This document shows positions 34,041 through 38,053 of a stretch of 64,000 bases of DNA, piece by piece. Position 1 is the first letter of the stretch. Every line of letters begins with the position of its first letter. The notes beneath the pieces were generated by a model. The model had not been told where the DNA came from. It did not search any database and saw only the letters and a program-made list of their open reading frames with translations. This stretch comes from an uncultured Pelagibacteraceae bacterium (GTDB lineage: Bacteria; Pseudomonadota; Alphaproteobacteria; Pelagibacterales; Pelagibacteraceae). Where the stretch lies: the NCBI GenBank assembly GCA_902538255.1, contig CACBEJ010000001.1, forward strand, positions 240,021 through 304,020, written 5' to 3'. A program made the position numbers and the translations under genes.

Positions 34041-34256
34041 TTGTCAAAACAAGACTTACTGGAATTTAAAGGTACAGTGATAGACCTACTTCCTAACGCT
34101 ATGTTTAGAGTAAAATTAGAAAATGGACATACCGTTACTGCCCATACAGCTGGTAAGTTGAGAAAAAACAGAATTAGAGTTCTCCAAGGTGATAATGTGA
34201 CAGTTGAAATGACACCTTACGATCTTACTAAAGGAAGAATTATTTTTAGGGGATAA
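34041..34256 (+). CDS. infA: Translation initiation factor IF-1 (TTG start)
   Basis: [64 protein letters not shown]. Confidence 0.97.
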
Positions 34257-34260
34257 ATAA

Positions 34261-34335
34261 GGCTGAGTAGCTCAGGAGTAGAGCAGAGCCCTGAAAAGGC
34301 TTGTGTCGGAGGTGCGAATCCTTCCTCAGCCACCA
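34261..34335 (+). tRNA. tRNA-Phe (anticodon GAA) with atypical D- and T-loops
   Basis: GGCTGAG TA GCTC AGGAGTA GAGC A GAGCC CTGAAAA GGCTT GTGTC GGAGG TGCGAAT CCTTC CTCAGCC A CCA. Confidence 0.92.
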
Positions 34336-34684: not shown

Positions 34685-34857
34685 TTTATACCTTGAATAT
34701 TAATTTTTTTTGTCTAAAAGACTGCTCATGAATATAAATATTACATACAGAAAGACTTTTAGAAGTACTCACAGAAACTGTTTCCATAGCCAGTAGGCTA
34801 TTTATTTATATTATAATTTTAAATCCACATAAAATAAGATAAAAACAAAGAGGATAA

Positions 34858-34932
34858 GCCCGGGTGGTGTAATGGTTAGCACGGAAGTTTGTGGAACTTT
34901 AAGTTTGAGTTCGACTCTCAGCCCGGGTACCA
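34858..34932 (+). tRNA. tRNA-His (anticodon GUG), alphaproteobacterial type without encoded G-1
   Basis: GCCCGGG...anticodon loop TTTGTGGA...GAGTTCGACTC...CCCGGGT A CCA; base -1 is A, 1:72 is G-U, base 73 is A. Confidence 0.95.
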
Positions 34933-34936
34933 AAAA

Positions 34937-36331
34937 ATGAATAAAGAAAAAAAATTAATTCCTGGATTACCTTCAGGATTTGAAGATCGTTGGGATAAAA
35001 AACTTCTTCTCAAAAAAAAGCTTTTAAAAGCTATTGAGAATAATTTTATAAAATTTGGAGCAGAAGCTCTGGAAACCCCTTCGTTTGAGATAAGTGAAAA
35101 TATAGGATCTTTTTTGGCAGAAGATGATGCTAATCCTATGAGTGATGTATTCTCATTTCAGGACGGAGAAAAAAACATTACTCTTAGGTATGATCTTTCA
35201 AGCCCACTAGCTAGATTTGTTGCTCAAAATAATCAAGAGCTTCCATCAATCTTTAAAAGATATGCTATTCAAAATGTCTTTAGAAACGAAAAGGCCGGTA
35301 ACGGAAGGTACAGAGAATTTATGCAAGCAGATTTTGATATTGTTGGAAATGTTTATCCTGCCCAGGCAAATGCTGAGCTTTGTAATTTAATATCAAGTAC
35401 TTTGTTAGATTGTGGTCTAAAAAAAGATCAATTTACAATTAACATCAGTAACAGAAAAATAGTTCAAGGATTAATTGATGATTTAAAAATATCGGAGGAC
35501 AAGCAAGTAAAAGTAATTAGGGCAATTGATAAATTAGATAAACCAGGTTTTGGTTTAAAAGGTGTTGAAGATCTGCTTAAAAAAGAGAGAAGAGATATAA
35601 GTGGTGCAATCACTAAGGGTGCAGATTTAAATGATGAACAAGCATCTGAAATACTTAATTTTCTAAAAATTAAAAATTTAAAAGATTTAAAAGAAAAATT
35701 AAAAAATCCATTGTCTCAAGAAGGTATAAAGGAATTAGAACAAGTATTTGAAGTATTGGGTTATAGTTCAAATTTAAATCAGGTCAAAACAAATTTTACA
35801 ATTGTAAGGGGATTGGCTTATTATTCAGATTTTATTGTTGAAACAAACCTAAATTTTAAAGTTACAAATAACAAAGGTAAAGAGGTTGATATAGGCAGTA
35901 TTTGTTCTGGTGGAGCTTATGCAAAATTAATTTCAAGATTTAAAGGTGTCGATATCCCAGGCACTGGAATTAGTTTTGGAGTGGATCGATTGTTATTTGC
36001 TTTAATGCAATTGGATCAAATAAAAGTAGATATTCAAAAACCAGTTTTAGTTTGTGTAATGGATGAAAAATATCTTAAAAATTATTATGAAATTTTAGAT
36101 CTTTTAAGAAATAATAATATTAATGCTGAAATTTTTTTAGATACAAAGAAAAATTTAGGTAAGCAACTAACCTTAGCAAATAAACGTGAGTTAGATGTTG
36201 CAATTATATGTGGTGAAAATGAATTTAACGAAAATACAGTCACCTTAAAAAGTCTTAAAGGTGTTAAGGGTGAAAACAATAAAACATTTCCAAAAGAAAA
36301 TTTAATCGATGAAGTCAAAAAACTTATCTGA
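34937..36331 (+). CDS. hisS: Histidyl-tRNA synthetase
   Basis: MNKEKKLIPGLPSGFEDRWDKKLLLK, RYDLSSPLARFVAQ, FRNEKAGNGRYREFMQADFDI; ORF-track start (34889) lies inside tRNA-His, so ATG 34937 is preferred. Confidence 0.95.
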   Translation: MNKEKKLIPGLPSGFEDRWDKKLLLKKKLLKAIENNFIKFGAEALETPSFEISENIGSFLAEDDANPMSDVFSFQDGEKNITLRYDLSSPLARFVAQNNQELPSIFKRYAIQNVFRNEKAGNGRYREFMQADFDIVGNVYPAQANAELCNLISSTLLDCGLKKDQFTINISNRKIVQGLIDDLKISEDKQVKVIRAIDKLDKPGFGLKGVEDLLKKERRDISGAITKGADLNDEQASEILNFLKIKNLKDLKEKLKNPLSQEGIKELEQVFEVLGYSSNLNQVKTNFTIVRGLAYYSDFIVETNLNFKVTNNKGKEVDIGSICSGGAYAKLISRFKGVDIPGTGISFGVDRLLFALMQLDQIKVDIQKPVLVCVMDEKYLKNYYEILDLLRNNNINAEIFLDTKKNLGKQLTLANKRELDVAIICGENEFNENTVTLKSLKGVKGENNKTFPKENLIDEVKKLI

Positions 36332-37361
36332 AAATATCCTTAGATCAGTTAAGTCTAAGGGTTTTAAATATATTGATTTACCCTCAGTAATTGAGGCTAA
36401 TCATATTGTTCAAAGATCAGGAGAAAACTTTAGAAAATTTATCTTTTCTTTTACGGATCAAAACGGAAGCGAATTGTGTCTAAGACCAGATTTAACGATT
36501 GCATCTTGTTTAAGATATTTAGAAAATAATTTAAAAGGTAAGGAAAAAATTTTTTACAGTGGTCAAGCTTATCGAAAATCACAAAACAAAAAAGACTCAA
36601 TCATTAGAAATCAAATTGGATTTGAAATTTTAGGATCTAAGGATGAGAAAAATGATGATAAAGAAATTATAAATACATCTCTTAAATCACTTCAAAATAT
36701 TAAATATTCTTCAGGAACGCTAACCATTGGAAATGTTGAAATATTTAATTTGTTAATTTCAAAATTAGATATTCCAAAGAGATGGAAACTAAGATTAGCT
36801 AGACACTTCTGGAGAGAAGAATATTTTAATGAATTATTAAAAAGATTAGAAACTAATTCAGATGTTGATCCGACAATTGTAGAAATAGATAAAAAGCGTT
36901 ACGTGAAAATGCTTAAAGAGAATTTATCAAATATTGTTGCAGGAAGAACAATTAATGAAATATTAAAAAGGTTTGATCAGAAAATAAAAGATCCTAGAAG
37001 AGCTAGTAAAGGAAAGAATGTTTCCAAAATAATAAAAGATTTTCTAAAAATTAAATGTCCCATAAATAAAGCAGCAATTGAGTTAAATAAATTTTTTAAA
37101 AAAAACAAAATAAATCTAGCTGTAGATCAAAAATATTTTCCAATCTCTAATAATAAGGTTTCAAAATTAAATGTAGTATTTTCAGCATCCTTTGGAAGAC
37201 AATTAGAATATTACACCGGAATGGTTTTTAAAATTGATATTAAATCTAAAAACTCATTAAAAAATATTATTAATGGTGGTCGTTATGATGGTCTAATTTC
37301 GGACTTAGGATCAAAAAAACAAACTCCAGCAGTAGGTGCTGCTTTAAATTTAAATTACTAA
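36309..37361 (+). CDS. hisZ: ATP phosphoribosyltransferase regulatory subunit
   Basis: HisRS-like catalytic fold without anticodon domain (LCLRPDLTIASCLRYLENN...KIFYSGQAYR); adjacent to short hisG. Confidence 0.88.
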   Translation: MKSKNLSENILRSVKSKGFKYIDLPSVIEANHIVQRSGENFRKFIFSFTDQNGSELCLRPDLTIASCLRYLENNLKGKEKIFYSGQAYRKSQNKKDSIIRNQIGFEILGSKDEKNDDKEIINTSLKSLQNIKYSSGTLTIGNVEIFNLLISKLDIPKRWKLRLARHFWREEYFNELLKRLETNSDVDPTIVEIDKKRYVKMLKENLSNIVAGRTINEILKRFDQKIKDPRRASKGKNVSKIIKDFLKIKCPINKAAIELNKFFKKNKINLAVDQKYFPISNNKVSKLNVVFSASFGRQLEYYTGMVFKIDIKSKNSLKNIINGGRYDGLISDLGSKKQTPAVGAALNLNY

Positions 37362-38053
37362 TGATAAAAAATATTTTAAATATTGGAATTCCAAGCAAAG
37401 GTAGACTTAGAAAAGATGTTTTAAATATTTTTAAAAAAAATAAATTAAATCTCATTTCTGAAAGAGGAGAAAGAGATCTTTTAGGATCTATAAAACAATT
37501 TAAAAATATTAAGATTTTATATCTTCATGCAAGAGAGATCATAGAAAGACTTGGAGATGGATCTTTAGATATAGGTTTTTCTGGCTTTGATTTATTAAAG
37601 GAAAGTGAAATTAACACTCAAAAGAAAGTTAATGTGTTAAAAAGATATAATTTTGGAAAGGCCACATTAGTAGTTGCAATCCCTGATCCATGGATAGATG
37701 TACAAACAGTTGCAGATTTAGAAGAAATTGCATTTGAATTTAAAGATAAGAAAAAGAAAAGATTAAGAGTAGCAACAAAATATCCAAACTTAACAAGGGA
37801 ATTTTTGTTTTCAAAGGGCGTTACCCAATTCAAATTAATTGATAGTTTGGGTGCAACCGAAGCTTATCCTTTTACAGGCTCATCGGAAATAATTACAGAT
37901 ATCACTTCTACCGGAGAAACGTTAAAAGCAAACAATCTACGTATTTTGAAGGATGGAGAAATATTAAGATCAGAGGCCTGTATGATGATTTCTAAGTCAT
38001 CCAATAATAAAATGGGTCTTAAAAAAATAGTAAAATTACTTTCTAAAAATTAA
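37361..38053 (+). CDS. hisG: ATP phosphoribosyltransferase, short form
   Basis: IGIPSKGRLRKDVLNIF, DIGFSGFDLL, IVDI-like ITDITSTGETLKANNLRIL. Confidence 0.94.
   Translation: MIKNILNIGIPSKGRLRKDVLNIFKKNKLNLISERGERDLLGSIKQFKNIKILYLHAREIIERLGDGSLDIGFSGFDLLKESEINTQKKVNVLKRYNFGKATLVVAIPDPWIDVQTVADLEEIAFEFKDKKKKRLRVATKYPNLTREFLFSKGVTQFKLIDSLGATEAYPFTGSSEIITDITSTGETLKANNLRILKDGEILRSEACMMISKSSNNKMGLKKIVKLLSKN

Follow-up and report, generated by a model that had tools for sequence, protein, structure and literature searches.

How is a synthetase gene translated and regulated when its start codon lies only a few nucleotides behind the gene of the tRNA that the enzyme charges? The question is raised by a window of 64,000 nt from an uncultured SAR11 member of the Pelagibacteraceae (assembly GCA_902538255.1, contig CACBEJ010000001.1, positions 240,021 to 304,020), which is the whole stretch of DNA that was analysed. 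Here the CCA end of tRNA-His is found 4 nt ahead of the ATG of the histidyl-tRNA synthetase gene hisS. The first-pass annotation of this DNA had pointed out this spacing and also the presence of hisZ and then hisG directly after hisS. Both are confirmed, the spacing by ARAGORN, Rfam and the sequence, and the gene order by the open reading frames of the window and by loci from two families. The features of the locus, in window coordinates, are as follows.

34693-34720, forward strand: putative leader promoter, read from the sequence (TTGAAT at 34693-34698, 16 nt, TAAAAG at 34715-34720)
34728-34796, forward strand: open reading frame between cspA and the tRNA for a His leader peptide, MNINITYRKTFRSTHRNCFHSQ followed by a stop codon, 22 codons, with His codons near the end
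34786-34801, forward strand: candidate attenuator hairpin, ATAGCC-AGTA-GGCTAT, with a T-rich tail, terminator-like in a simple scan
34812-34817, forward strand: TATAAT in the sequence, a possible second promoter or the T-rich tail of the hairpin
34851-34854, forward strand: AGGA, Shine-Dalgarno (SD)-like, 3 nt ahead of the tRNA, with complementarity to the 3′ end of 16S rRNA, ACCUCCUUUCU
34858-34932, forward strand: tRNA-His (GUG), with G1:U72, A73, no encoded G-1 and an encoded CCA (ARAGORN and Rfam)
34933-34936, forward strand: AAAA spacer between the CCA and the hisS start codon, from the sequence
34937-36331, forward strand: open reading frame of hisS, histidyl-tRNA synthetase (HisRS), 464 aa, with its ATG at 34937-34939
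36309-37361, forward strand: open reading frame of hisZ, a HisRS paralogue and ATP phosphoribosyltransferase regulatory subunit
37361-38053, forward strand: open reading frame of hisG, ATP phosphoribosyltransferase, step 1 of histidine synthesis

The open reading frames of hisS, hisZ and hisG overlap at their ends in the window. For comparison, loci were taken from the Pelagibacteraceae at large and from a sister family, whose loci have no tRNA-His ahead of hisS. hisZ is present in 152 of 153 loci of the Pelagibacteraceae and in all ten sister-family loci with room for it, and hisG in 144 of the 153 and again in 10 of 10.

A comparison of the spacing across SAR11 relatives had been suggested in the first-pass annotation, and the tight junction holds up well in it. 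In 73 of the 75 close relatives with a tRNA called by ARAGORN, tRNA-His and hisS are 4 nt apart, and in the other two the distance is 5 nt. In the Pelagibacteraceae at large it is mostly 3-5 nt, despite divergent tRNA-His and HisRS: this spacing is found with many different tRNA-His sequence types, and persists while HisRS identity falls to about 45%. Loci in which ARAGORN found no tRNA mostly carry a non-standard tRNA with an unusual T-loop, and this was recovered by Rfam or by a relaxed scan. The exceptions, with 23-47 nt from the CCA to the ATG, are loci L115, L117, L119, L120, L129, L130/L131 and L140, and several of these have a hairpin. In L117 and L130, two of the long-insert loci, an SD has arisen beside the hisS ATG. 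A pattern sample, limited to standard T-loops and to spacers of up to 12 nt, gave 39 other alphaproteobacterial genomes with an ATG no more than 12 nt from tRNA-His; hisS was retrieved from 37 of them, and in no case was it the gene at the tRNA.

Upstream of the tRNA, every one of the 121 distinct Pelagibacteraceae regions has an ATG open reading frame with His near its end (the sequences in this and the other counts are phylogenetically related, and the counts thus overstate independence). The frames scored were those with at least 2 His in the last 14 residues and an end 35-110 nt before the tRNA; frames of this type occur in 1.1% of shuffled sequences, and two genomes used as controls gave 9 in 1244 and 14 in 1191 upstream regions. 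The ends of the peptides are characteristic of clades, and read RHHFHAG, NRGVHSHFHAG, RHHFHAGCTLAI, HSHRMHAKLLLSL or HHHFHAKHGLGN. Since the motifs differ between clades, it appears that His is kept while the remaining residues drift. The ten sister-family loci all have a shorter leader (M..KHHHYHI and a stop codon, e.g. MFNFKHHHYHI), 88-100 nt ahead of hisS. Thus a leader is found there without the tRNA, and this makes the leader older than the tRNA linkage. The simplest history would be one in which the Pelagibacteraceae later acquired tRNA-His at a site between the leader and hisS. The Rfam covariance model His_leader gave no match, even at E≤1. An initial reading of the region between cspA and tRNA-His (34700-34806) as a small RNA was superseded by the leader peptide. 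An Rfam match to RAGATH-12 at 34760-34836 scores 21 bits where the cut-off is 75; it is absent in five relatives and is taken to be a chance match.

The candidate attenuator hairpin of the window starts within the last His codon of the leader and contains the leader stop codon. In 70 of 72 distinct cases a hairpin of 6-8 bp starts no more than 5 nt from the last or the last but one His codon, vs 0.4% of shuffled sequences. The stem also shows paired changes between lineages, with GCTGGC/GCTAGC, GCAAGC/GCTTGC and ATAGCC/GGCTAT as examples. It should be noted that the stem is short and that the T-rich tail is interrupted. Efficient intrinsic termination is uncertain for this reason, and Rho or pausing may serve.

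Of 106 distinct cases, 72 have a TTGNA motif that starts 35 nt ahead of the leader ATG, and in 92 the motif falls between -45 and -28, vs 8% of shuffled sequences. From this position of the motif, the transcript is predicted to start at or beside the leader ATG, and the leader peptide would thus be translated from a leaderless message. A promoter closer to the tRNA, either the TATAAT at 34812 or a TATAAA-like sequence near -16, would yield a transcript of tRNA-His and hisS that escapes the attenuator. A mosaic was observed in this region in loci L028 and L048 when compared with L002: the promoter-proximal part, tRNA-His and the start of hisS are identical from about the hairpin onward, and the leader peptide, cspA and tRNA-Phe are of a different allele. 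This points to a recombination breakpoint between the hairpin and the tRNA.

The tight junction had been taken in the first-pass annotation to leave no SD outside of the tRNA, but this is wrong for the 5′ side, where AGGA is found. AGGA, GGAG or GAGG are present in 31 of 49 distinct 12-nt leaders of tRNA-His and in none of the 104 leaders taken from other tRNAs (Fisher p ~5e-20, with phylogenetic relatedness ignored). In the tRNA-His leaders AGGA is confined to positions -12 to -4, and its distance to the tRNA varies from 0 to 6 nt. On the HisRS tree the motif is found in each of the two deep clades and changes 7 times. tRNA-His leaders are also predicted to pair more strongly with the 16S tail than leaders of other tRNAs or gene starts in general. 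The 16S 3′ end, GGATTACCTCCTTTCT, has an anti-SD that matches AGGA, and AGGA shows a peak 5-9 nt ahead of SAR11 start codons; together these argue that SDs are used in SAR11.

With a folded tRNA that is looped out, the distance from AGGA to the hisS AUG would mostly be about 8-12 nt, and up to 15 nt by another count. The geometry of such a split site is similar in most lineages, with AGGA 0-6 nt 5′ of the tRNA and the AUG 3-5 nt 3′ of the CCA. In half of the sister-family hisS genes an SD is found at the normal place, which suggests that the tRNA came between the SD and the start codon. AGGA is absent from clade g2-g4 (L142-L150 in part) despite a tight junction, and thus the split site is not universal. 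The earlier idea that a retained tRNA would be the 5′ untranslated region of hisS survives in a modified form: such a region could matter for translation, since most lineages retain an SD-like motif directly ahead of the tRNA. Taken alone, a split ribosome-binding site that spans tRNA-His is given a chance somewhat short of even. A translation start inside the tRNA, at the TTG at 34889, was also considered. The open frame upstream of the ATG varies from relative to relative and no start codon is common to the tRNA types, and this candidate was rejected.

It is possible that the junction reflects tight packing and nothing else, in which case the tRNA would be excised in the usual way and hisS would be translated from a leaderless or AAAA-leader mRNA, with no regulation at the junction. 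A tRNA close to a gene is by itself nothing unusual in SAR11, where roughly one tRNA in four has an open reading frame on the same strand within about 12-15 nt (in genome G003, 8 of 32 tRNAs are no more than 15 nt from one, with similar values in G000, G001 and G015). The median gap between coding sequences is 7 nt, and an SD core motif precedes only about 12-15% of SAR11 genes. Because SDs are rare and other tRNAs also directly precede open reading frames, the missing SD beside the hisS ATG is weak evidence. The A-rich surroundings of the hisS AUG, which are probably unstructured, and the tight junction without AGGA in clade g2-g4 also fit with compaction. Left unexplained are the presence of AGGA 5′ of tRNA-His but not of other tRNAs, and the His leader with its hairpin. 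The spacing of other pairs of tRNA and open reading frame is also more variable than that of His. In genomes G000, G001, G003 and G015, the His gap is 4, 5, 4 and 4 nt, respectively, that of Leu-CAA 7, 1, 4 and 7 nt, and that of Leu-UAG and tig 10, 12, 10 and 9 nt. Compaction as the full explanation is thus regarded as rather unlikely.

For AGGA, a role other than that of an SD should also be considered, as an element of a promoter, of the pre-tRNA leader or of RNase P recognition, for example by pairing of its GG with the CCA end. A TATAAA-like element is present near -16 to -18, so that AGGA could fall near a transcription start site, and in some tRNA types RNA folding pairs the GG with the CC of CCA. 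Against this, the motif is absent from other SAR11 tRNAs, its distance to the tRNA shifts by 0-6 nt, and the tRNA-His of clade g2-g4 is of the same kind (no G-1, A73) and yet lacks AGGA. Such a role is judged improbable, to about the same degree as compaction. Quite unlikely is a feedback by analogy with ThrRS at thrS, in which HisRS would block the ribosome by binding to tRNA-His within the hisS mRNA. Such binding, like tRNA processing, had been put forward in the first-pass annotation as a possible feedback signal, and neither gains support from the present comparisons. A true substrate of HisRS does abut the start codon, and the acceptor end, which bound HisRS would cover, has AGGA on one side and AUG on the other. 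Regulation of this kind is known from E. coli thrS, whose bipartite ribosome-binding site is interrupted by a hairpin that ThrRS recognises (PMC3858243), and from yeast, where HisRS acts by way of an anticodon mimic to repress its own mRNA (PMC6542539). However, the tRNA bodies are highly variable, with G1:U72, A73 and the anticodon kept in nearly all, and attenuation would already supply feedback.

Some minor observations on tRNA neighbours belong here. tig is found after Leu-UAG in all four of the genomes named above, and His is the only cognate pair of tRNA and synthetase seen among SAR11 tRNA-ORF neighbours. In the window, tRNA-Phe starts 4 nt past the infA stop codon (34256-34261). Since many SAR11 tRNAs are no more than 12 nt from an open reading frame, mRNAs punctuated by tRNAs may be common in SAR11.

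The reading preferred here is that of an attenuated, histidine-responsive operon, in which the leader peptide and hairpin would control tRNA-His, hisS, hisZ and hisG; on the present comparisons this is considered likely. The order would be promoter, nearly leaderless His leader, attenuator hairpin, AGGA, tRNA-His, AAAA, hisS, hisZ and hisG. When charged tRNA-His is scarce, a ribosome would stall at the His codons that end the leader frame, and the stalled ribosome itself would mask the 5′ arm of the hairpin, so that the polymerase could continue into tRNA-His and the genes for HisRS, HisZ and HisG. With charged tRNA-His in good supply, the ribosome would complete the leader and depart, the hairpin would form, and transcription would stop or pause before the tRNA. 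Supply of tRNA-His, its charging and histidine synthesis would probably be adjusted together in this way when charged tRNA-His is low. Thus a switch shared by histidine charging and synthesis, which the first-pass annotation had suggested for the junction, very probably exists, mainly by way of the leader peptide and hairpin that precede the tRNA, features that this annotation had not noticed. Only one tRNA-His gene was found per genome examined (G000 and G015 are incomplete). The controlled genes therefore include the sole tRNA-His found, and the molecule that is sensed would be a product of its own operon.

On the read-through transcript, hisS initiation would probably proceed by the split ribosome-binding site, with AGGA 5′ of a folded and looped-out tRNA. 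Cleavage by RNase P would take the SD away and would leave a nearly leaderless hisS mRNA. The fuller proposal, in which a working tRNA is the spacer of a split site for its own synthetase, RNase P or HisRS lowers translation, and the His leader attenuates from above, is tentative and is held at less than an even chance.

The leader and hairpin resemble those of his operon attenuation in enterobacteria (hisL, Rfam His_leader), with clustered His codons, a hairpin just downstream, and targets in histidine synthesis or the HisRS family. They likewise resemble the His leader peptides of hisS*/hisZ in bacilli (PMC2965389), which have a short frame with His codons, a hairpin just downstream and HisRS-family targets. 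Unlike in both of these, the SAR11 hairpin overlaps the end of the reading frame, the leader is probably leaderless, there is no Rfam match, and the tRNA-His gene itself lies within the controlled operon.

For the split site, the closest likeness is to T4 genes 38 and 25, in which structure brings the distance from SD to AUG from 22 to 5 nt and from 27 to 11 nt, respectively (PMC3014915). In these and in SAR11 the SD and AUG are parted by a structure that would give a working distance, about 8-12 nt in SAR11 compared with 11 nt in gene 25. The putative SAR11 site differs in that the intervening structure would be a complete functional tRNA of 75-77 nt. The E. coli thrS operator is similar to the candidate SAR11 site in that a bipartite ribosome-binding site in the mRNA of a synthetase is interrupted by a tRNA-like structure, but in SAR11 this is a real tRNA rather than a mimic, and repression by HisRS is only hypothetical. 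Mitochondrial transcripts are also punctuated by tRNAs, and excision of the tRNA would leave a nearly leaderless mRNA in SAR11 as well. The SAR11 case differs in that it is bacterial, is limited to some genes, and has an SD-like motif 5′ of the tRNA.

SAR11 bacteria are thought to possess few regulators. Most Pelagibacteraceae, which are among the most abundant marine cells, retain a putative RNA-based histidine switch, which would act on the supply of the tRNA, on its charging and on step 1 of histidine synthesis. To our knowledge, no described attenuator controls the tRNA that it senses. If AGGA is used, the tRNA would form part of a ribosome-binding site, which would couple tRNA maturation to translation of the synthetase. 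A literature search of partial coverage found no description of SAR11 tRNA-His-hisS or of its His leader peptide. In the ranking of long intergenic regions of ‘Ca. P. ubique’ by Meyer et al. 2009, regions that contain tRNAs were removed (PMC2704228), and the leader may have gone unreported for this reason. Leader peptides hidden between the tRNAs of other streamlined genomes can now be searched for in the same manner.

The tRNA-His sequences themselves are diverse. That of the window has A at -1, A73 and G1:U72, and in its A73 and lack of an encoded G-1 it is of the RRCH type of alphaproteobacterial tRNA-His and HisRS (PMC3937112), the form described for SAR11. Unlike in that description, tRNA-His and hisS are physically linked here, and the tRNA bodies are unusually diverse in one genus. 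Strict co-inheritance of tRNA-His and HisRS as a cassette was rejected as a rule: HisRS that are nearly identical occur beside tRNA-His of different types (L001, L018), and HisRS of 42-58% identity can share a single tRNA type.

In alleles of both tRNA-His and tRNA-Phe (window 34261-34335), AG in place of GG in the D-loop goes with xGC in place of TTC in the T-loop. The loci with this change are L018, L059, L065, L071, L112, L116 and L144, and several of the AG/xGC tRNAs were missed by ARAGORN. Among tRNA-His alleles, GG is absent in 8 of 8 without TTC and present in 18 of 19 with TTC. The joint change suggests that an A18-G55 pair replaces G18-Psi55. In genomes G000, G003 and G015, which belong to one genus, most tRNAs are identical; those that diverge are tRNA-His (66-73% identity), tRNA-Arg-ACG (69%, in two of the three pairs) and tRNA-Thr-GGU (73-81%). 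From their sequences these three look like whole-gene replacements, and phage or tRNA-cleaving toxins could be the driver.
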